From: Streptomyces sp. TG1A-60
Lineage (GTDB): Bacteria; Actinomycetota; Actinomycetes; Streptomycetales; Streptomycetaceae
Assembly: GCF_037201975.1 (NCBI RefSeq)
Contig: NZ_CP147520.1
Span: forward strand, 6,200,001 to 6,264,000
Length of the DNA: 64,000 nt
Direction of reading: 5' to 3'
The notes below the pieces were generated by a model. The model saw only the letters and a program-made list of their open reading frames with translations, did no database searches and had not been told where the DNA came from. This document shows, in pieces, positions 47,996-57,454 of this stretch. The position numbers were made by a program, and so were the translations under genes. The number at the start of each line of letters is the position of its first letter. Positions within the stretch are counted from its first letter, which is position 1.

Positions 47996-48967
47996 ATGGA
48001 ACTTGCCTACATTCCCAGCCCGTCGCGCGGGGTGCTCTACCTCGGTCCCGTCCCGCTGCGCGGCTACGCCTTCTGCATCATCATCGGAGTCTTCGTAGCC
48101 GTCTGGCTCGGCAACAAACGCTGGGTCGGCCGCGGCGGGCGGGCCGGTACGGTCGCCGACATCGCTGTCTGGGCCGTGCCCTTCGGGCTCGTCGGTGGAC
48201 GGCTCTACCACGTGATCACGGACTACGAGCTGTACTTCAGCGAGGGCCGCGACTGGGTGGACGCCTTCAAGATCTGGGAGGGCGGGCTCGGCATCTGGGG
48301 CGCGGTCGCGCTCGGTGCGGTGGGTGCCTGGATCGGGTGCCGTCGTCGGGGCATTCCGCTTCCCGCGTACGCCGACGCCGTGGCGCCCGGCATCGCCCTC
48401 GCGCAGGCGATCGGGCGATGGGGCAACTGGTTCAACCAGGAGCTGTACGGCAGGCCGACGGATCTGCCGTGGGCCCTGGAGATCACGTCCTCCACGGACG
48501 GGCGGGTGCCGGGCACCTACCACCCGACCTTCCTCTACGAGTCGCTGTGGTGCGTCGGCGTCGCGGTCCTCGTCATCTGGGCCGACCGTCGCTTCCGGCT
48601 CGGGCACGGGCGGGCGTTCGCGCTGTACGTCGCCTCCTACTGCGCGGGGCGGTTCTGGATCGAGTACCTGCGGGTGGACGACGCCCACCACATCCTGGGC
48701 CTGCGCCTGAACAACTGGACCGCGCTGTTCGTCTTCCTCCTCGCCGTGGCCTACATCATCCTGTCGGCCCGCAAGCGGCCTGGGCGCGAGGAAGTCGTCG
48801 AGCCGGGTGTCTCCGACGGGAACGGGGACGAGGGTGCGGCTTCGGTGGAGTCCGCGGCCAAGTCGGACGATGAGAAGAAGGACGAGAAGACCTCCGACTC
48901 CGCCGCTGAGGGTACGGAGACTACGGAGGCCCCTGAGGACAAGGCCAAGTCCGCCGAGAAGAGCTGA
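47996..48967 (+). CDS. lgt: Prolipoprotein diacylglyceryl transferase
   Basis: Transfers diacylglycerol to the lipobox Cys of prolipoproteins, the step before LspA. The 323-residue protein has seven membrane helices, the Lgt signature GRWGNWFNQELYG (140-152), PVPLRGYAFCIIIG and the RFWIEYLRVDD motif. A 50-residue acidic/Lys tail after 275 is typical in Streptomyces. ATG 47996 is the first Met matching family starts; TAGCGT lies 10 nt upstream, a marginal leaderless signal. Confidence 0.96.
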   Translation: MELAYIPSPSRGVLYLGPVPLRGYAFCIIIGVFVAVWLGNKRWVGRGGRAGTVADIAVWAVPFGLVGGRLYHVITDYELYFSEGRDWVDAFKIWEGGLGIWGAVALGAVGAWIGCRRRGIPLPAYADAVAPGIALAQAIGRWGNWFNQELYGRPTDLPWALEITSSTDGRVPGTYHPTFLYESLWCVGVAVLVIWADRRFRLGHGRAFALYVASYCAGRFWIEYLRVDDAHHILGLRLNNWTALFVFLLAVAYIILSARKRPGREEVVEPGVSDGNGDEGAASVESAAKSDDEKKDEKTSDSAAEGTETTEAPEDKAKSAEKS

Positions 48968-49059: not shown

Positions 49060-49913
49060 TCAGTGTCTGATGGAGCGGTTCGCCAGGGACAGGGTTCTCC
49101 GGGCGCCCGCTACCACCGCCGGGTCGATGAAGCGGCCGTCGGGAAGGGCTTGGGCGCCGGGGGCGGTGGTCGCGGCTTCGAGGATCTCCTCGGCCGACTC
49201 GATCTCCGCCGGGGTGGGGGCGTAGGCGCGTTCGATCACCGGGAGTTGCCGGGGATGGACGGCGGCGCGGCCGAGAAAGCCGAGAGCGCGGCCGTGGGCG
49301 GAGGTGACCGCCAGGCCTTCGAGGTCTCTCGTGTCCGGGTACAGGGACTGGGCGGGGGAGGGGAGGCCGGCGGCGCGGGCGGCCAGGACTGTGCGGCAGC
49401 GGGGCCAGTCGAGGGCCGGGTCGTGGCGGACGGCCAGATCGGCGCGGAGGTCCGCCTCGCCGAGGGCGATGCCGTGGAGGGCGGGGTGGGAGGCGGCGAT
49501 GTCGTAGGCCCGTTCCACGCCCAGAGCCGATTCCAGGAGGGCGTACAGCGGGAGGCTGCCTCCTCGCGCGGGTGCGGTGCGTTCCGCGACACGTACGACC
49601 TCGGCGGGGGAGGTGATCTTCGGAAGGCGGAGGGCCGCCAGGCCGGGGAGGGGGGAGAGGGCGGTGAGGTCGTCCTCGGCGAGCGGCGTGTCCAGGGCGT
49701 TCACGCGGACGTGGACCGGAACGGGAGGAGGGCCCGCGAGGAGTTCCGCCGTGGCCGCGCGTGAGTAGGCCTTGCGGTCGGGGGCCACGGCGTCCTCCAG
49801 GTCCACGATCACCACGTCCGCGCCCGAGGCCAGGGCCTTGGCGACCACCTCCGGGCGGTCACCGGGGACGTACAGCCAGGTCAGGGGAAAGGGGGCGTCG
49901 GCCGGTCGGTCAT
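49060..49913 (-). CDS. CitE-like HpcH/HpaI family lyase, apparent frameshift near the start
   Basis: A CitE/malyl-CoA-lyase-like (beta/alpha)8 protein. The open frame runs from GTG 49848 (262 residues): ASGADVVIVDLEDAVAPDRK, RVNALDT, RLPKITSP, ALLESALGVERAY (metal Glu), IALGEADLRADL and GRAAVHPRQ are typical. The natural N-terminus is split: ATG 49913 reads MTDRPTPPFP, then a stop, while TWLYVPGDRPEVV, the expected family sequence, is in the lyase frame. One additional C in the C-run near 49894-49898 would join them into a 284-residue protein. Either a base is missing in the assembly or the gene is damaged. The partner CoA-transferase gene upstream suggests acyl-CoA chemistry; the substrate is unknown. 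Confidence 0.85.
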
Positions 49914-51109
49914 AGGGCGCCCTCCTGGCGGAGGGTCTCGATGTCCGGTTCCGACAGGCCCAGTTCGGTCAGGATCGCGTCGGTGTCGGCGCCGTGCGGA
50001 CGGCCCGCCCAGCGGATGGCGCCGGGAGTGTCGGAGAGCCGGAAGAGCACGTTCTGCATGCGCAGGGGGCCGAGGTCGGGGTCGTCGATGGTGGTGAGGG
50101 TGTCCAGGGCCCGGTATTGGGGGTCGGTCATCACCTCCCTGATGTCCTGGATGGGGGCCACCGCCGCCTCCGCCTTCTCGAACGCCTCGATGACCTCCTC
50201 GCGGGTGTGGCGGGCGATCCACGTGCCGACCGCCTCGTCCAGGACGTCCGCGTGGCGGGCCCGGTCCGCCCCCGAACCGAACCACGGCTCCTCGATCAGC
50301 TCGGGGCGGCCGACCAGGCGCATCACCCGTTCCGCGACGGACTGGGCGGAGGTGGAGACGGCCACCCAGGAGCCGTCCGCCGTGCGGTAGGTGTTGCGGG
50401 GCGCGTTGTTGGCGGAGCGGTTGCCGGTGCGGGGCTGGACGTGGCCGAGCTGGTCGTACCAGAGGGGCTGGGGGCCCAGGACGGTGAGGATCGGCTCGAT
50501 GATGGCCATGTCGACGATCTGCCCCTCGCCCGTACGGTCACGCCCGGCGAGTGCCGTCATCACCGCGTACGCCGTCGCCAGGCCCGCGATCGAGTCGGCG
50601 AGACCGAAGGGCGGCAGCACCGGCGGGGCGTCCGGTTCGCCGGTGATCGCGGCGAAGCCGCTCATCGCCTCGGCGAGCGTGCCGAAGCCGGGACGTTGGG
50701 CGTACGGGCCGAACTGGCCGAAGCCGGTGACGCGGGCCAGGACCAGGCGCGGGTTCGCGGCGGACAGCTCCTGCCAGCCCAGGCCCCATTTCTCCAGGGT
50801 GCCGGGGCGGAAGTTCTCGATGATCACGTCGGAGGTGGCGGCGAGGCGGAGGAGGGTGTCACGGCCGCCGGGGGTGGAGAGGTTCAGCGTCAGTGTGCGC
50901 TTGTTGCGGCCCAGCAGTTTCCACCACAGGCCCACGCCGTCCTTCGAGGGGCCGTGGCCGCGGGACGGATCCGGCTTCGTGGGGTGCTCGATCTTGATGA
51001 CCTCCGCGCCGAAGTCGCCCAGCATCGTGGCGGCGAGGGGACCGGCGAAGAGGGTGGCGAGGTCGATGACGCGGAGGCGGGTGAGCGGGGGGTCGTACGC
51101 CTGGGTCAT
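49910..51109 (-). CDS. CaiB/BaiF (class III) CoA-transferase
   Basis: A 399-residue family III CoA-transferase. LRVIDLATLFAGPLAATMLG, DFGAEVIKIEHP, GRNKRTLTLNL and DVIIENFRPGTLEKWGL are diagnostic. At the position where formyl-CoA transferase has the catalytic Asp (PGYD), this protein reads RPGFGTLAEAMSG, with G143, so the usual aspartyl-CoA intermediate cannot form there; a nearby Glu may substitute. From memory, this RPGFG variant is a recurring subfamily. ATG 51109 overlaps the upstream gene's stop (ATGA), and its 3' end overlaps the ATG (49913) of the CitE-like gene. The substrate is unknown. Confidence 0.9.
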   Translation of the reverse strand: MTQAYDPPLTRLRVIDLATLFAGPLAATMLGDFGAEVIKIEHPTKPDPSRGHGPSKDGVGLWWKLLGRNKRTLTLNLSTPGGRDTLLRLAATSDVIIENFRPGTLEKWGLGWQELSAANPRLVLARVTGFGQFGPYAQRPGFGTLAEAMSGFAAITGEPDAPPVLPPFGLADSIAGLATAYAVMTALAGRDRTGEGQIVDMAIIEPILTVLGPQPLWYDQLGHVQPRTGNRSANNAPRNTYRTADGSWVAVSTSAQSVAERVMRLVGRPELIEEPWFGSGADRARHADVLDEAVGTWIARHTREEVIEAFEKAEAAVAPIQDIREVMTDPQYRALDTLTTIDDPDLGPLRMQNVLFRLSDTPGAIRWAGRPHGADTDAILTELGLSEPDIETLRQEGAL

Positions 51110-52518
51110 GGGCGGTGGGTCTCCCGGAGGGTGAGGCGGGCCAGGGCGTCGAAGCCGATGCCGTCGAAGTCGGAGATCGAGGTGGCCAGGCGGTTCTTGA
51201 GGGGGACCGTCCAGCGGTCGGGGAGGGCGCTTGGGGAGCCGGCCAAAAGGCCCGCGATGCTGCCTGCCGTCGCGCCGTTGGAGTCGGTGTCCCAACCGCC
51301 CGACACCGCACGGCAGACGGAGGCCGTGAAGTCGCCGTCCGCGTGGGTGAGGGCGGCGGTGAGCAGGGCCGCGTTGGGAAGGGCGTGGACCCAGTGGTGG
51401 TCGGCGTAGGTGGTGTGGAGTTCGTCGACGATCGTGTCGAAGTCGTCGGTTTCGGCGGCGAGCCGGAGGGCGTGGTTGACCGCCCTCGCCAGGCGGGATT
51501 CCGGGGGGACGACCTTGAGGCCGGTGCGCAGGCAGTGGTGGATGTCGTGGGTGTGGGTGTGGGTGTGGGTGTGGGTGCGGGTGCCGGTGTCTGCGGCGGC
51601 TTCGGCGATGGTGGCAGCGATGAACATCGCCGCGTAGACCCCGTTCGCCGTGTGGGTGAGGGTGGCGTCACGGTGGGCCTGCTCTGCTGCGGCGGCCGGG
51701 TCGCCGGGGTTGGTCCAGCCGTGGACGTCGGCGCGGATCAGGGCGCCGATCCATTCGCGGAACGGGTTGCGGTGGCGGGCGGTGTGCGGGGGGCCGACGC
51801 CGGTGAGGAGGTTGCGGTAGGCGATGCGTTCGGCGGTGAACGTGCGCCCTGCGGGGAGTTCGTCCAGCCAGAGCCTCGCCACGTCGGTGGTGGTGAAGTC
51901 GCTGCCGTGGCGGGCCAGGAGGAGGAGGTTCAGGAGAGGGTAGTCGAGGTCGTCGTCCTCGGGCATGCCGTCGATGTTCTCGGCGAGGGAGGTGGAGGCC
52001 GAGCGGCGGTTCCAGGGGTGGGCGGCGAGGAGTTCCGGGGGGACGCCTCGGGCGGTGAACCAGGTGGTGAGGGGCCAGTTGCCGGCGGCGGCGGCGAGGT
52101 GGCGGATGGCGGTGAGAGGGAGTTTTTCGACGGGTTTGCCCAGGAGGCAGCCGACGGCGCGGCCCAGCCAGGCGGCCTCGAGGCGGGGAAGGTACGTGGC
52201 CGGGGCGGGCGCGGGCCGAGCCGGGTGAGCGGGCCAGTTCGGGCACAGGGCCCTGATCCTGTCCAGCTCTGTCGGCTCGCTCTCCGCCAAGCCGCTCGGT
52301 AGGTCTGCCAGTTCGTCCAGCAGGTCCTCGGCCAGCAGTCTCACGTAGCGGGAGGCCGGCCGGCCGGACGCGCCGGCGCGGAGGGGGGCCGGGGGGCCGC
52401 CTGCCGCCTGCCAGCGAGCGGCGATGGCCGAGGATTCGCGGCCGTCCTGTACCGCCTGGTGGAGTTCGTGGCCCAGGAGGTCCTCCGGCTGGACCCAGGT
52501 GAGGCGGAGGGGGGTCAC
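51106..52518 (-). CDS. ADP-ribosylglycohydrolase family protein (paralogue D)
   Basis: A 470-residue ARH/DraG-fold protein with a 110-residue N-terminal extension. The core starts at LEAAWLGRAVGCLLGKPVEKL; MPEDDDLDYPLL replaces TDDT as the first metal motif and GGWDTDSNGATAGSIAG is the second, both intact for this subfamily. It may remove ADP-ribose from protein or small-molecule substrates; which is unknown. A His-rich insert THTHTHTHTHDIHH lies at about residues 308-321. GTG 52518 overlaps the upstream paralogue's stop. It precedes the CoA-transferase gene in the same operon. Confidence 0.9.
   Translation of the reverse strand: MTPLRLTWVQPEDLLGHELHQAVQDGRESSAIAARWQAAGGPPAPLRAGASGRPASRYVRLLAEDLLDELADLPSGLAESEPTELDRIRALCPNWPAHPARPAPAPATYLPRLEAAWLGRAVGCLLGKPVEKLPLTAIRHLAAAAGNWPLTTWFTARGVPPELLAAHPWNRRSASTSLAENIDGMPEDDDLDYPLLNLLLLARHGSDFTTTDVARLWLDELPAGRTFTAERIAYRNLLTGVGPPHTARHRNPFREWIGALIRADVHGWTNPGDPAAAAEQAHRDATLTHTANGVYAAMFIAATIAEAAADTGTRTHTHTHTHTHDIHHCLRTGLKVVPPESRLARAVNHALRLAAETDDFDTIVDELHTTYADHHWVHALPNAALLTAALTHADGDFTASVCRAVSGGWDTDSNGATAGSIAGLLAGSPSALPDRWTVPLKNRLATSISDFDGIGFDALARLTLRETHRP
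51549..51590 (-). repeat. GGGTGT hexamer array encoding a Thr-His repeat
   Basis: Four perfect GGGTGT units (51549-51572), two GGGTGC and one CGGTGT variant follow in frame and encode alternating Thr-His/Thr-Arg. It is of the same hexamer class as the array at 12931, but within a gene. Unit number can change without frameshift. Confidence 0.9.
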
Positions 52519-53699
52519 CGGAGGGGCGCCAGGGTGGTGAAGGCGGCCTCGTGGGCGCGCCGGCGCCGTACGTCCTGGTCGTGGATCTGGAGGGTGACCT
52601 CCGTCAGTGTCGTGGCGGGGGCGTGCAGGTCCAGGCGGCTGGCCTCCGCCACCGTCTTGGCCCAGTCGGGCGGGATCTCCGAGCCCAGCGCGCCCGCCAG
52701 AGCACCGGACATCGTGGCGATCGAGTCGCAGTCGCGGCCGTAGTTCACCGAGCCCAGGACCGCGTGGCGGTAGTCGCCGCGGGCCACGAGCAGCATGCCC
52801 AGGGCGATGGGGAGTTCCTCGATCGCGTGGAGGCGGGAGGGGCGGCGGGCGCCGAGGGAGGGGGTGCGGTAGTCGGGGCCGACCGTGTCGAAGGGGGCCA
52901 CCGCCTCGCGCAGCGGCCGTAGCGCCGACTCGAAGTCCGTGTACCTGGACGCCACTTCGCACACCGCCTCGACCGCCGCGTGCGTGCCGTCCTTCGCCAG
53001 CCGGAGGACGGCCTCGGTCACCGACTCCGCCGTCGCGCCCGGCAGACACGCCGCCGCCACCGCCGCGGCGAACACGCCCGCCGCCTCCCTGCCGTACGAC
53101 GACTGGTGGGCGCCCGCGATGTCGAGGGCCTCGGCGTACGCGCCCGCCGGGTCGGCCGCGTTGACCAGGCCGACGGGGGCCATGTACATCGCGGCGCCGC
53201 AGTTGACGATGTTGCCGGTGCCGGCCTCGCGGGGGTCGATGTGGCCGTAGTGGAGGCGGGCCGCCAGCCACTTCTCGGCGAGGAAGACCCGCTGGAGGGG
53301 GAGGGCCTCGGCCTCCAGCTCCGGGATCCAGCGCGGCGTCGTCATCATGTCCGGTACGAGGTGCTCGGCGACGGCGTACGCGTCCAGGTGGTCGCGGACG
53401 CGGTCGTACACCCGGACCAGCGCGTGCGTCATCAAGGTGTCGTCGGTGACGTGGCCGTCGCCCTTGTGGTACGGGGCGAGGGGGCGGGCGGTGCGCCAGT
53501 CGTCGCCGCTCCAGGGGCCGACGACGCCGTGGATACGGCCGCCGTGGCGTTCGAGGATCTGCTCCGGTGTGTAGCCCTCGACCGGGCCGCCGAGGGCGTC
53601 GCCGACGGCGGCGCCGACCAAGGCGCCGGTGATGCGCTCTTCGAGGCCTGCTTCGGCGGGGGGCATGGCGTGCAGGTTGGCTTCCGTGGGGGGCGTCAT
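52515..53699 (-). CDS. ADP-ribosylglycohydrolase family protein (paralogue C)
   Basis: A 394-residue ARH/DraG family member with canonical motifs: GALVGAAVGDALGGPVEGY at 26-44, GHVTDDTLMTHAL for the first metal site and NYGRDCDSIATMSGALAGAL for the second. The Cys in GRDCDS is a common variant. It is the most standard hydrolase of the four in this operon, with that at 55281. It starts with ATG 53699, 8 bp after the stop of the upstream paralogue, and overlaps the next gene. Confidence 0.93.
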   Translation of the reverse strand: MTPPTEANLHAMPPAEAGLEERITGALVGAAVGDALGGPVEGYTPEQILERHGGRIHGVVGPWSGDDWRTARPLAPYHKGDGHVTDDTLMTHALVRVYDRVRDHLDAYAVAEHLVPDMMTTPRWIPELEAEALPLQRVFLAEKWLAARLHYGHIDPREAGTGNIVNCGAAMYMAPVGLVNAADPAGAYAEALDIAGAHQSSYGREAAGVFAAAVAAACLPGATAESVTEAVLRLAKDGTHAAVEAVCEVASRYTDFESALRPLREAVAPFDTVGPDYRTPSLGARRPSRLHAIEELPIALGMLLVARGDYRHAVLGSVNYGRDCDSIATMSGALAGALGSEIPPDWAKTVAEASRLDLHAPATTLTEVTLQIHDQDVRRRRAHEAAFTTLAPLR

Positions 53700-53706
53700 G
53701 CCCGAA

Positions 53707-55284
53707 TCATCCTCCTGGGTTGGCGAGTTCCGCGGCTGCGAGAAGTTCGGCGAGGTGTACGAGGTCCGTGCCGGTGAGGCGGGGGAGGGCGCAGCCGGAG
53801 AGGGTGCGGCAGGCGTCCCGCCAGGCGCCGGGGATGGCGGCGGCGGCGCCGAGCGCGCCGGTCAGGGCGCCGGCGAGGGCCGGGGCTGAGTCGGCGACGC
53901 GGGAGAGGCAGGCGGCGGCGGGGACGGCCTCGGCGATCCGGCCGCGCGCGGCTGTGGCGAGGGCCAGGGCCACGGGGACGGTCTCGGCGGCGGCGATGCC
54001 GTAGCTGTAGACGTGGTCGACGATCTGGTGCTCGAGGAGCGGTACGAGAGCGAATGTGCCTTCTTTCCTGTGCCGGCGGGCGAGGTCCAGGGCGTGGCGG
54101 GCGTTGCGGCCGATCTCCGTCTCCTCGGGGAGTTCGGCGAGGGCGGCCTCCACGCAGTCACCGACGTCCGCGCCGACGAGCGCCAGCGCGAGCGCGGCGG
54201 CCATCGCGCGGGCGCCGTGCACGCCGTCGCCGTCCTGGGTGTACCGGGCGTCGAACTCGGCGAGTTCCGCCGCGAGTCGGGGGTCGCCCGGGTGGGCGAC
54301 GGCGAGCACGCAGGCGCGTACGCAGGCGGCGTCGTCGAAGTAGTGGGGGTTGTCGTGGCCGGTGGCGGGTGGGCGCAGGCCGGCGGCGAGGTTACCGAGG
54401 CCGGCGCGGACGGAGATCCGGGCGCGCAGGGGGAGTACGGCGGACTCGACCTCGGGCGCGCGTTCGGCTGCCGCCGCGATCTCGCTGGCGACGGCGTTCC
54501 AGGACAGGTCGATCGAGGCGCGCGTGCGGCGCTCCAGGCTCAGGCCGCCGAGGGCGCCCGCGTCGCCGGCCCGCAGGAGGGCCTCCGCCGCGAACGCCGC
54601 CCACTCCGCGTCGTCGGAGGGGCCGAGGCGGAGCGGCTCGGGGGGCTGGTTGAGTGCGATGGGGACCGGCAGCGTGGTTGTGGCGTTCTGCTCGGCGAAC
54701 GTGTCCAGCTCGCGGGTGAGGCGCCGGGTCCACTCCGGCATCCGGGCGGCCCGGTGCCGGGCGGCGGGCCAGCCGGCGGCGTCGCCCGCGGCGAGGCCGA
54801 GGAGGAGGCCCTCGATACGGCGGGCACCCGGGGGGCGTGTCGTGCCGGCCTCGGCTCCGCCTTCGGCCAGGGCGTTCCCACCCGCACCCGTGCGACTGTC
54901 GTCGTCGGGTGCGGGTGGCTCCCGTGGGGCGCCCTCGCCGCCGGTGACCGCACGTCCGGCCTCGATCGGCTTCGCCGCGAGCGGGGGTCGGGTTCTGGTG
55001 CGCTTCGCCACGACGGTGGGTTCGAGTGGGGCAAGCTTCGCCGTGAGCGTACGTTCGGCTTCGGTCGGTTCTGCCGCGATCGGGGGCTGGGCCCGGGTGG
55101 GCTTCGCCACGAGGGTGGGTTCGGTCCCGGTCGGGTTCGCCATGACCGTGCCTTCGGCTTCGGTGTGCTCCGCCGTGAGCGGGAGTTCCGTTCCGGCCGT
55201 GCTCTTCGCCCGCGGGGTGGGTGTCGAGGCGGGCGTCGTCCTCTCGCGCGGCTCGGGCTCGTGCCACGCAGTGGGCGGGGTCAT
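53707..55284 (-). CDS. Divergent ADP-ribosylglycohydrolase-like protein with repetitive N-terminal extension (paralogue B)
   Basis: A 525-residue protein. The first 160 residues are a low-complexity Thr/Pro/Ala region with two 33-residue repeats. The ARH-like fold begins at GLLLGLAAGDAAGWPAAR. The first metal motif TDDT is replaced by PSDDAEW, and the second, normally GxDxDT, reads SRVADSAPALAGALTGALG, keeping one Asp. FDDAACVRACVLAV may offer other ligands. It may be catalytically altered or inactive. ATG 55284 overlaps the upstream paralogue's stop (ATGA). The GC3 pattern is normal, so I take it to be a real gene. Confidence 0.83.
   Translation of the reverse strand: MTPPTAWHEPEPRERTTPASTPTPRAKSTAGTELPLTAEHTEAEGTVMANPTGTEPTLVAKPTRAQPPIAAEPTEAERTLTAKLAPLEPTVVAKRTRTRPPLAAKPIEAGRAVTGGEGAPREPPAPDDDSRTGAGGNALAEGGAEAGTTRPPGARRIEGLLLGLAAGDAAGWPAARHRAARMPEWTRRLTRELDTFAEQNATTTLPVPIALNQPPEPLRLGPSDDAEWAAFAAEALLRAGDAGALGGLSLERRTRASIDLSWNAVASEIAAAAERAPEVESAVLPLRARISVRAGLGNLAAGLRPPATGHDNPHYFDDAACVRACVLAVAHPGDPRLAAELAEFDARYTQDGDGVHGARAMAAALALALVGADVGDCVEAALAELPEETEIGRNARHALDLARRHRKEGTFALVPLLEHQIVDHVYSYGIAAAETVPVALALATAARGRIAEAVPAAACLSRVADSAPALAGALTGALGAAAAIPGAWRDACRTLSGCALPRLTGTDLVHLAELLAAAELANPGG
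54967..55164 (-). repeat. Two 99-bp coding repeats in the divergent ARH-like gene
   Basis: Residues 41-73 and 74-106 form two 33-residue units, each starting TEAE, with EPT(L/V)VAK in the middle and ending PP(I/L)AA(E/K)P. Part of a third unit (IEAGRAVTGG) follows and a partial one (TELPLTAEH) precedes. The DNA copies have diverged moderately, so the expansion is older than the perfect 15-bp array at 10064. Confidence 0.8.
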
Positions 55285-56435
55285 GCGGGGGTCTCCGTCT
55301 GGTCGTCCGCCGCGAGGGTGAAGGCGCTCGGGTCCGGTGGTGGCCACTCTGCGCGGTGCAGGGGTTCCGTGTCGGTACCTCGCTTCTCGCGCTCGTCCGG
55401 TGTCCGTTTCCGGCCCTCGCCCGGTACCCACTTCCCGCCCTCACCCGGTACCAGGAGTTCCGCCACGTCCAGCACGTGGTGGCCGGTCATGGAGGGGAGG
55501 CAGCTGCCTCTTGCCGGGCCGATCGCGGCGGCCCACTCGGGTGGGATCGACGATGCTCCCCGGGTCGCGCCGGCCAGCGCGCCGGCGACGGCGGCGGTCG
55601 TGTCGGCGTCGCGGCCCATGTTGACGGCGGTGAGGACGGACTCGGTGAAGTCGCCGTCGGCCGCCGTGTAGGCGCCGAAGGCGAGGGCGACGGCTTCGGG
55701 GGCGAGGTCGGTCCAGGGGTAGCCGCCGATGACGACGGCGGAGCGGACCGCGCGTTCGCCGCGGTGGGCGACGGCCACCGCCCGGCGCAGGGAGCGGGCG
55801 GTCCAGGAGTCGTCGGGGACGGCGGCGAGGGCGGAGGCCACGACCGCGATGGTGGGGGCGCCCGCCATGGCCGCCGCCACGCCGGCGGCGACCGCCTGGC
55901 CGCCGTAGATGCCCTCGCCGTCGTGGCTGACCGAGCCGTCGACGGCGACCAGGCGGGCGGCTTCCGCGGGTCGGCCCGCCGCGAAGACGCCGAAGGGGGC
56001 CGCGCGCATGGCCAGGCCGTCGCTCCAGGCGTGCCGGTGCTGGGCGGAGATCGGCGCGGCAAGGCCCCGGCGGAGGTTCTCCAGGGTGCCGCGTTCGCTG
56101 AAGCCGGCGCCCCGGAACGGTCCCTCGTCCAGATCCGCGATCCACTGGTGCCAGGCCGTCTCCACATGCGCGACGGTGAGCGCCGAGCCGTGCCGGGCCA
56201 GCAGCAGCCCGGAGAAGATGGCGTACTCGGTGTCGTCCGTCCCCGCGGGGGTCTGCGCCACGTACCCCGTGATGCGCCCCCAGCGCGCACGGATCTCGGA
56301 GGGCTTCATGTTCTCGGCGGGCGCACCCAGTGCGTCCCCGACGGCGAGCCCGAGCATGGCCCCACGTGCCCGTTCACGGAGGCCGGCGGCGTCCCCCGGC
56401 GCCGGAACCGGAGGAATACAGACGATGGAAGGCAT
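55281..56435 (-). CDS. ADP-ribosylglycohydrolase family protein (paralogue A)
   Basis: A 384-residue ARH/DraG member: RGAMLGLAVGDALGAPAENM, then AGTDDTEYAIFSGLLLARHG (first metal motif TDDT) and VNMGRDADTTAAVAGALAG (second), all intact. It heads the six-gene operon. ATG 56435 has GAGAGGC upstream and gives the natural MPSIVCIPPVP start. About 60 C-terminal residues are a charged, Pro-rich tail. Removal of ADP-ribose is inferred from family. Confidence 0.93.
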   Translation of the reverse strand: MPSIVCIPPVPAPGDAAGLRERARGAMLGLAVGDALGAPAENMKPSEIRARWGRITGYVAQTPAGTDDTEYAIFSGLLLARHGSALTVAHVETAWHQWIADLDEGPFRGAGFSERGTLENLRRGLAAPISAQHRHAWSDGLAMRAAPFGVFAAGRPAEAARLVAVDGSVSHDGEGIYGGQAVAAGVAAAMAGAPTIAVVASALAAVPDDSWTARSLRRAVAVAHRGERAVRSAVVIGGYPWTDLAPEAVALAFGAYTAADGDFTESVLTAVNMGRDADTTAAVAGALAGATRGASSIPPEWAAAIGPARGSCLPSMTGHHVLDVAELLVPGEGGKWVPGEGRKRTPDEREKRGTDTEPLHRAEWPPPDPSAFTLAADDQTETPA

Positions 56436-56725
56436 ATGGCGCCTCTCTGACCCGGTGGGCAGATCTGGCCCGATGGGCAGTTGATCCGCTCTGAGGATTT
56501 CCGAGATTTCCCAGCTTTCGCTGGGAAGATCCCTGCCACATCGGGTGCTTCGGCGGCCCCGGAACGCCTCCGTATCACCCGGTCGACATCTGTGCAGGGT
56601 CATATACGAATGAGCGGAAGCGTTCCTCGAACAAGTCGAGAGGGCTCGTCCGGACGCCTGGCGGAGCCGGGTAAGTACGGCCTTCCTTGCTGGCAGAAGC
56701 GATTATCCGAGCGTACGTTCGAGAT
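56436..56725. promoter_or_regulatory. Divergent promoter region of the ADP-ribosylglycohydrolase operon and the VIT gene
   Basis: 290 bp with no gene. A perfect 8-bp inverted repeat with a four-base loop, TTCCCAGC-TTTC-GCTGGGAA, lies at 56508-56527, about 73-92 bp before the ARH operon start. GATGGGCAG and GGTGGGCAG recur near 56455-56480. TACGTT at 56714-56719, 6 nt before the VIT ATG, looks like a -10 for a leaderless message. Confidence 0.55.
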
Positions 56726-57454
56726 ATGGCGATCGTTGAGACCGAGGCCGCGCCGCACGAGGCGCACCGCGACAACCACACCCACCGGGACGTCAACGGA
56801 GGCTGGCTGCGGCCGGCCGTGTTCGGGGCGATGGACGGACTCGTGTCCAACCTGGCGCTGATGACGGGTGTGGCGGGCGGATCGATGGGCCGGGAGGCGA
56901 TCGTCGTCGCCGGTCTCGCGGGGCTCGCCGCCGGGGCCTTCTCCATGGCCGCCGGCGAATACACCTCCGTCGCCTCGCAGCGTGAACTCGTCGAGGCCGA
57001 GCTCGACGTCGAACGGCGGGAGTTGCGCCAGCATCCCCAGGACGAGGAGAAGGAGCTGGCCGCGCTGTACGAGGCGCGCGGTGTCGAGCCGGGGCTCGCG
57101 CGTGAGGTGGCGAGCCAGCTGTCGCGCGACGCCGAGCGGGCTCTGGAGATCCATGCGCGCGAGGAGTTGGGGGTCGACCCCGGTGGCCTTCCCTCGCCGG
57201 TCGTCGCCGCCGTGTCGAGCTTCGGCGCCTTCGCGGTGGGCGCCCTGCTGCCCGTCCTGCCGTATCTGCTCGGTGCGAGCGCGCTGTGGCCGGCCGTGCT
57301 GGTGGCGCTCGTCGGGCTCTTCGGGTGCGGCGCGGTGGTGGCCAGGGTGACGGCCAGAACCTGGTGGTTCAGCGGACTGCGTCAGCTGGCCCTGGGGGGC
57401 GCCGCGGCGGGTGTGACGTATGCCCTGGGCAGTCTGTTCGGTGCGGCCGTATGA
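56726..57454 (+). CDS. VIT1/CCC1 family iron/manganese transporter
   Basis: A 242-residue VIT/CCC1-type membrane protein. The N-terminal part reads WLRPAVFGAMDGLVSNLALM and GVAGGSMGREAIVVAGLAGL; GAFSMAAGEYTSVASQRE is the conserved second-helix motif. A cytosolic helical segment with Glu-rich HPQDEEKELAAL (metal-binding region in plant VIT1) precedes three more helices. It probably moves Fe2+ or Mn2+ out of the cytoplasm. ATG 56726 is of leaderless type. Confidence 0.93.
   Translation: MAIVETEAAPHEAHRDNHTHRDVNGGWLRPAVFGAMDGLVSNLALMTGVAGGSMGREAIVVAGLAGLAAGAFSMAAGEYTSVASQRELVEAELDVERRELRQHPQDEEKELAALYEARGVEPGLAREVASQLSRDAERALEIHAREELGVDPGGLPSPVVAAVSSFGAFAVGALLPVLPYLLGASALWPAVLVALVGLFGCGAVVARVTARTWWFSGLRQLALGGAAAGVTYALGSLFGAAV

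Follow-up and report, generated by a model that had tools for sequence, protein, structure and literature searches.

Genes of the ADP-ribosylglycohydrolase (ARH) family are usually taken to encode erasers of ADP-ribosylation, and the two-metal site of the known enzymes holds the ribose of the substrate. Here we describe a block of six genes from Streptomyces sp. TG1A-60, four of which encode ARH-family proteins (ARH1 to ARH4) and two a class III coenzyme A (CoA)-transferase (CoAT) and a CitE-like acyl-CoA lyase (CitE). The block lies in a 64,000-nucleotide stretch of a 7.83-Mb chromosome (G000 C1:6200001-6264000), hereafter the window. We consider it fairly probable that the six genes represent an actinobacterial catabolic operon for an imported ribosyl conjugate, reduced in content but still under selection. 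The novelty is the full form found in relatives, a LacI-controlled ATP-binding cassette (ABC) sugar operon whose hydrolase position is filled by ARHs. For specialists the surprise is a set of ARHs re-read as nutrient enzymes; the operon suggests a sizeable metabolic branch of the family, which changes the substrates that deserve trial.

The described DraG, ARH1 and ARH3 enzymes (PF03747) have their fold and two-metal ligands in common with ARH1, ARH3 and ARH4 of the block (to which these numbers refer unless stated otherwise), and the block differs from them in the sugar-import context of its relatives and in the pseudo-enzyme ARH2. In Escherichia coli, the yegTUV operon, as described in the available part of PMC10819704, likewise combines an ARH and a sugar kinase with a transporter under a dedicated repressor, GgaR/YegW. 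Compared by that published description and not by sequence, yegTUV has a major facilitator superfamily symporter, a GntR-family repressor and one ARH, whereas the full operon has an ABC importer, a LacI protein and four ARHs; unlike the block, yegTUV includes no CoA-transferase or lyase. RipC and the class III CoA-transferase of itaconate-type degradation provide the same pair of folds as CitE and CoAT, and RipC_Ccl is the best model for CitE, but both block proteins score below cut-off and the six-gene block has no hydratase. The LacI-controlled ABC sugar-utilisation operons, which we take to be of the type named CUT1, have a LacI protein, an operator, two permeases, a sugar-binding protein (SBP), hydrolases and a sugar kinase in common with the full operon, which, by contrast, has ARHs in place of or alongside ordinary glycosidases and includes an extra CoA-transferase/lyase pair. 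Creative Commons-licensed PMC text yielded no account of the operon, yegTUV being the nearest precedent there; any of the S. coelicolor genes SCO2028-SCO2033 is named in only four papers of that text, and the word "glycohydrolase" is absent from the available main text of two regulon papers (PMC4052901, PMC3750489).

All six genes are on the minus strand, head to tail, as a preliminary description of this DNA had proposed, and coordinates and Pfam matches bear this out. ARH1 (55281-56435; PF03747, 197.5 bits) is the first of the block, followed by ARH2 (53707-55284; 119.8 bits), a pseudo-ARH with an N-terminal arm, ARH3 (52515-53699; 163.7 bits), the core ARH of the operon, and ARH4 (51106-52518; 163.8 bits), which has a GTG start and a helical N-terminal domain of ~100 aa; all four exceed the PF03747 cut-off of 26.2 bits. 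CoAT (49910-51109) belongs to the CaiB/BaiF class (PF02515, 408 bits), and CitE (49060 to ~49884, its start being uncertain) has the HpcH/HpaI fold (PF03328, 121 bits). The joints are, in order, a 4-nt overlap, a 7-bp gap and two further 4-nt overlaps, the last between ARH4 and CoAT.

The full sugar-import operon in relatives

An ARH3 alignment (A1, in which nine other members are 52-59% identical to the most distant one, L121), run against GTDB contigs, identified at least 586 relatives, and the best 80 were taken as named loci (L139-L218), 27 at the site occupied in the window, between lgt and a VIT1-family gene, and 53 elsewhere. Clustering of the flanking reading frames and a rerun of the same query set revealed a longer unit, in the order LacI - permease - permease - sugar-binding protein - ARH1-ARH2-ARH3-ARH4 - ribokinase - CoAT - CitE. 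Away from lgt/VIT1, LacI is present in 45/45 loci, each of the permeases PermF and PermG in 47/47, and SBP in 48/48, together with ARH4 (45/47), ribokinase (34/45), ARH1 and ARH2 (28/48), CoAT and CitE (33/41 each), an FGE/EgtB-like protein (20/41) and an esterase (13/41). These counts are limited to loci with enough flank, a gene being scored as present wherever tblastn found it within the fetched locus (the ribokinase of L212, for example, lies beyond LacI), and they are not probabilities, because the loci, many of them from Streptomyces, are not independent. The taxa named include Streptosporangiaceae, Haloactinopolyspora, Phytoactinopolyspora, Kribbella, Nocardioides, Glycomyces, Micromonospora, Herbiconiux, Leifsonia, Agreia, Cellulosimicrobium, Prauserella, Allokutzneria and Nanopelagicaceae. 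The operon also occurs in two metagenome-assembled genomes labelled Trueperaceae (Deinococcota), in L204 and, as a part on a short contig, in L152, by horizontal transfer or through a binning error.

Upstream of LacI, a AAACGTTT-type palindrome occurs in 52 of 53 loci, with the extended consensus C-T-G-T-AAACGTTT-A-C-A-G. The scan spanned 150 bp upstream of LacI and 30 bp inside the gene, and the resulting 9,540 bp contain 84 operator cores, where the remainder of the loci would predict 0.08; the count omits 32 loci in which LacI or its upstream region falls outside the fetched stretch.

The permeases belong to BPD_transp_1 and the binding protein to SBP_bac_1 (PF01547), a profile that matches sugar- and oligosaccharide-binding proteins. 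The PfkB kinase of L115 passes the ribokinase model TIGR02152 (310 bits; cut-off 299.65) and matches solved ribokinases (E 4.4e-62), and that of L075 falls just below it (298.3 bits). The best models for LacI are GntR, CytR and RbsR, none of which reaches its cut-off. In 11 of the 13 loci with an esterase (L145, L146, L149, L154, L158, L170, L172, L183, L194, L202 and L207), this gene immediately follows CitE on the same strand; L215 has it inside the operon ahead of CitE, and L212 has it upstream. All four esterases searched match PF00756, six have a signal-like N-terminus by eye, and several have beta-propeller-like repeats. The FGE/EgtB-like partner (L116 3701-5689 and its orthologues, A3) combines an N-terminal part resembling a barrel with a C-terminal domain of FGE/EgtB type, in a low-confidence model (predicted local distance difference test score, pLDDT, 69.2) whose low TM-scores to amylase-type barrels and to FGE/EgtB are suggestive only. 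Since the esterase and this weakly modelled barrel/FGE-like protein join the operon, the gene content suggests that the imported conjugate is larger and acylated.

The same components bear on a possible role in nucleoside scavenging, in which an ordinary or modified nucleoside would be imported, the ARHs would be N-ribosyl hydrolases, CoAT and CitE would degrade an acid derived from the base, and the operon would be a large cousin of yegTUV. A ribokinase within the operon and the LacI models named above, all below cut-off, are consistent with such a role, as is yegTUV itself, which according to the available part of PMC10819704 combines a putative sugar kinase with an ARH and a nucleoside symporter, both predicted. 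The SBP profile, however, fits sugar- and oligosaccharide-binding proteins, and the esterase and barrel/FGE-like partners point to a larger acylated conjugate, which makes nucleosides an improbable substrate.

Conservation and reduction in Streptomyces

Gene order was compared by a check set beforehand. A search with ARH4 matched 55 of 150 Streptomycetaceae genomes, and ~15 kb, or less at contig ends, was fetched around 40 of the matches; the other 15 comprise the window's own genome and 14 with weaker matches (36-49% identity). The order CitE-CoAT-ARH4-ARH3-ARH2-ARH1 is complete in 37/40 of these loci, and the other three are cut by contig ends. In the genus of the window (g1) the block lies between lgt and VIT1/gltB, and the same block in genera g7 and g17 (12 loci) has none of these flanks. 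A class-wide ARH4 search covered 394 genomes, 70 of them with matches at E<=1e-20. Among 31 loci from other families (L093-L123), which like all loci from L053 to L132 were chosen by their ARH4 match, ARH3 stands beside ARH4 in 31/31 and CoAT and CitE are present in 28/31, one of the other three, L093, stopping at a contig edge; in L118 the block genes are reordered yet still together. Because the order is shared, the flanks are not, and CitE identity drops to 32-57% among the conserved loci, the conservation goes far beyond chance.

Streptomyces sp. HNM0575 (L184) carries a complete operon between lgt and VIT1, in the order trpA-dsbA-lgt, CitE-CoAT-RbsK-ARH4-ARH3-ARH2-ARH1-SBP-PermG-PermF-LacI, VIT1, and its ARHs group with those of the window and of L073 with strong support in the tree, for each ARH. 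The window block can therefore be read as a reduced operon, most simply as the L184-type operon minus importer, regulator and ribokinase. At the lgt/VIT1 site the named loci have LacI in 2/25, the permeases in 1/25, SBP in 1/25 and ribokinase in 12/26, with CoAT in 25/25 and CitE in 24/24; in the other Streptomycetaceae set, ribokinase is present in 19/27 and the importer in 0/27 at this site, and the importer in 12/12 elsewhere. In Streptomyces sp. CB02923 (L191), LacI is the only one of the lost genes that remains at the site. In the window, the ARH1-VIT1 intergenic region (56436..56725) marks the position that SBP, the permeases and LacI occupy in L184. The VIT1-family gene to its right (56726..57454, plus strand; PF01988, 230 bits) and, on the left, lgt (47999..48967, plus strand; a name we assume from position and sequence, not from a family search) are fixed flanks of the Streptomyces site and lie outside the system.

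All six genes of the block are under purifying selection, with ratios of nonsynonymous to synonymous substitution (dN/dS) of 0.085-0.425 in comparisons with six relatives, ARH2 being taken without its arm; in the same comparisons the controls gave 0.15-0.377 (lgt) and 0.116-0.146 (trpA). These values, although trpA is tighter, argue against a decaying, functionless relic in this strain, as do the reading frames, which are intact save for the start of CitE. A relic would fit the disappearance of importer, LacI and ribokinase, and also the CitE start: ahead of the first strand, CitE of this strain has no in-frame ATG, GTG or TTG, whereas an in-frame start lies no more than 40 codons upstream in 45/45 relatives with a match covering the first strand (L150 being unreadable). 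The candidates here are a CTG at 49884 and a GTG at 49848, and an ATG at 49913, which overlaps the CoAT stop, is out of frame with respect to CitE. This oddity (window 49848-49920) may reflect a CTG start, a start change or an assembly error, and we regard a relic as very unlikely.

Four ARH-family proteins

ARH1 has a complete set of metal ligands (E-flap, TDDT and DADT), with E and D-D kept in 118/118 and D-x-D in 119/119 orthologues covering the motif. Counted in the same way, ARH3 keeps T-D-D in 150/150 and E and D-x-D-S in 149/149, and ARH4, with the motifs DDD(L)(N/D)(Y/F) and DTDS, keeps E, D-D-D and D-T-D in 145/145. Motif reading across orthologues thus agrees with the preliminary description, which had assigned both metal motifs to these three proteins and, to ARH2, motif loss and a repetitive arm. 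In ARH2 the flap Glu (0/121 orthologues) and the first Asp of motif 2 (0/122) are gone, S-D-D-x-E-W is mostly kept (each D of S-D-D in 120/123, the later D in 119/122), and the domain minus the arm has a dN/dS of 0.085-0.285; these features mark ARH2 as a conserved pseudo-hydrolase that accompanies ARH1. The arm (54835-55284, about residues 1-150) is rich in Ala, Thr, Pro and Glu. The room for it, measured from the ARH1 stop to the ARH2 domain at 12 loci, spans 0-627 nt in 11 of them, with 0-19 nt in three outside Streptomycetaceae, and the twelfth (L214) gave a negative, meaningless value; this range led us to reject the idea that the arm forms a functional domain.

ARH1 and ARH2 are both present in 119/151 loci and both missing in 27, and ARH2 occurs alone in five that are short or end with the contig. 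This co-occurrence is what would be expected of an active subunit and its pseudo-enzyme partner, and because the two occur together, a mixed complex, which the preliminary description had suggested for the block, is plausible for ARH1 and ARH2. If confirmed, the two would form a new active/pseudo-enzyme pair.

The block ARHs are mutually ~26-34% identical in the longer BLASTP alignments (ARH2 and ARH3 align over 59 residues only). In 100% of 200 bootstrap trees, each of them has a cross-family group to itself; the trees, built from 71 rows drawn from about 20 loci together with four other ARHs of the genome, include long branches flagged by the program. The low identity and the cross-family groups identify the four as old paralogues, and on the same grounds a recent tandem duplication was rejected. 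Since ARH3 and ARH4 occur without ARH1 and ARH2 in 20/48 loci, and two Nanopelagicaceae-type loci (L142, L143) contain ARH1-ARH2-ARH3 and no ARH4, ARH3 is the core member. The AlphaFold2 model of ARH4 (pLDDT 89.2) has its best fold matches in DraG and ARH3 (E about 1e-6 to 1e-5; TM-score by target length ~0.66-0.76). The ARH4 relatives listed are 452-521 aa long, and the ARH4 match is fragmented at a few loci (L083, L086-L088). A GT-rich microsatellite in ARH4 (window 51553-51582) encodes a Thr-His repeat, located in a low-confidence loop (model residues 313-322). Shorter ARH4 paralogues found elsewhere lie near LacI, ABC or ribokinase genes in 5/9 loci. At L244 (11846-12580), in the window's genome, ~3.6 kb separates the ARH4 paralogue from what looks by eye like a sirtuin gene, and another ARH of this genome (L245) adjoins a gene that reads by eye as Nudix, a more typical ADP-ribose context.

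DraG is the closest solved relative of ARH1, but the DraG equivalog TIGR02662 (cut-off 337 bits) is reached by none of the block proteins (ARH1 80, ARH3 45 and ARH4 20 bits; no match listed for ARH2). In an alignment to 2woc that is gapped in this region, ARH1 has an Arg at the position of DraG Asp97 and an Ala at the ExxA Glu; a residue offset of 5 was deduced from the D97N chain, and Tyr212 is not covered. The roles of Asp97 and of the ExxA adenine contact are those given in the available part of PMC7050489. The S. coelicolor genes SCO2028-2030 (PMC5087735) and SCO2028-2031 (PMC9411070) are printed, in the parts of these papers available, as uncharacterised DraG/ARH homologues, with no account there of the operon or of its relatives. 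We infer from gene numbering and order that SCO2028-SCO2031 are this block, with SCO2028 probably ARH1 and SCO2030 probably ARH3. In the available part of PMC5036795, SCO2028 is printed where the context of TrpM primers implies SCO2038, probably a typing slip.

These comparisons bear on whether the block instead reverses ADP-ribosylation or salvages O-acyl-ADP-ribose, made by sirtuins as they transfer acyl groups from lysine to ADP-ribose, with ARHs freeing the acid and CoAT and CitE recycling it. Such a role would account for the ARH fold and metal sites, human ARH3 is reported to degrade O-acetyl-ADP-ribose (PMC7050489, available part), and the best NCBIfam model for CoAT, below its cut-off, is a succinate-glutarate CoA-transferase. 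The recurrent neighbours identified in relatives are nevertheless the importer, LacI, ribokinase, esterase and FGE/EgtB-like protein, with no ADP-ribosyltransferase, sirtuin, Nudix or macrodomain protein among them, some frames being unidentified and no targeted search having been made. Purified SCO2028 and SCO2030 had no detectable activity on U-alpha-ADPr, the single substrate concerned in the available part of PMC13036486, and the Arg and Ala of ARH1 at the DraG Asp97 and ExxA Glu positions, within their gapped alignment, also speak against this role, which we rate as unlikely. Of the preliminary idea of a single pathway, the part based on gene order is supported by the conserved order and different flanks, but its tie between ADP-ribose removal and acyl-CoA metabolism is not supported: relatives join the block to a sugar importer, LacI and ribokinase, and CoAT and CitE are optional and also occur without ARHs. 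A role in ADP-ribose signalling is not supported, although it may hold for the Streptomyces remnant; judging from gene context and motifs, the block ARHs are more likely nutrient hydrolases than signalling parts. If this is correct, the Streptomyces ARHs SCO2028-2031, now under study as candidate erasers of ADP-ribosylation, would be left over from a nutrient pathway.

The window's genome has nine PF03747 places, four of them inside the block. The absence of macrodomain genes, which the preliminary description had noted locally, extends to the whole genome, with 0 PF01661 matches at the sensitivity of the search; ADP-ribosyltransferases were not searched for. These nine ARH places and the lack of macrodomain matches contrast with the three macrodomain hydrolases reported for S. 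coelicolor (PMC9411070, available part).

A role in defence or immunity, in which the ARHs would neutralise different attacks by ADP-ribosylating toxins or phages, has a parallel in the ARH immunity proteins that the Protein Data Bank holds paired with ADP-ribosyltransferase toxins (6dre, 8za7). PADLOC gave 0 matches among the six block proteins, for which reason we rejected this explanation, and the fixed order, the sugar-operon context and the LacI operator of the relatives also make it hardly credible.

Proposed pathway and the acid module

The observed gene content, order, losses, motif conservation and operator form the basis of a model that adds a substrate class, a direction, an ARH1-ARH2 complex, repression by LacI and an order of reactions. 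The ABC sugar importer would bring in a ribosyl (ribofuranosyl-type) conjugate, in which ARH-fold enzymes, ARH1 together with its inactive partner ARH2, would hydrolyse glycosidic or acyl-ribosyl bonds at C1 of the ribose. Ribokinase would phosphorylate the freed ribose, CoAT would convert the freed carboxylic (hydroxy-)acid to its CoA thioester, and the CitE-like lyase could split the thioester into acetyl-CoA (or propionyl-CoA) and an oxo-acid. LacI is predicted to repress the operon at the CTGTAAACGTTTACAG-type operator. Given that the importer and LacI are lost in most of the Streptomyces loci read, the remnant enzymes would need an internal substrate or one imported by another system. A more specific version, which we advance only tentatively, is that ARH-fold proteins are widespread, hitherto unrecognised intracellular glycosidases for an abundant environmental ribose conjugate, an ester-linked hydroxy-acid riboside, with up to three active ARHs, an obligate ARH1-ARH2 pair, CoAT and CitE downstream, and SCO2028-2031 as remnants. 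The SBP, a LacI with a defined operator and the kinase are handles that together can name the substrate.

Several observations weigh against the catabolic pathway. To our knowledge, the activities established for PF03747 enzymes all concern ADP-ribosyl bonds, and the ribose assignment rests on the fold and the ribokinase. L169 is the sole exception among the 53 upstream regions in having no operator core. The window block is without LacI, importer, operator and ribokinase, a AAACGTTT-type core being absent from the whole window, the ARH1-VIT1 intergenic region included. Within the window's genome, SBP has its best match at 26% identity, so no close SBP copy is kept elsewhere in it (the permeases and LacI were outside this search), and ribokinase has its best match at 46%. 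CoAT and CitE are missing from the fetched flank in 8/41 loci away from lgt/VIT1, which makes the acid step optional. Among the best 79 listed CoAT places in the 394 genomes (>=62% identity), 58 are near an ARH4 match and 21 are not, by hand count, and the 20 fetched places without a nearby ARH4 contain CitE in 16 cases and ARHs in one (L234).

CoAT scores below every NCBIfam equivalog cut-off listed, its best model being NF052585, succinate-glutarate CoA-transferase (243 vs 750 bits), and CitE likewise falls below those listed for it, with NF038242 (RipC_Ccl, citramalyl-CoA lyase) as the best (150 vs 375 bits). CoAT matches at E<=1e-60 occur in 192/394 genomes, and this number, together with the 20 places just described, led us to reject CoAT as an exclusive partner of ARHs. 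CoAT and CitE are a separate, optional module that is also found without ARHs. Other CoAT places without ARH4 have apparent MmgE/PrpD, cyclase and amidohydrolase genes, as judged by eye, some of these stretches stopping at contig ends. In L234, CoAT and CitE occur with ARH1-like, ARH2-like and LacI-like genes and no ARH3 or ARH4 match, the same parts in another arrangement.

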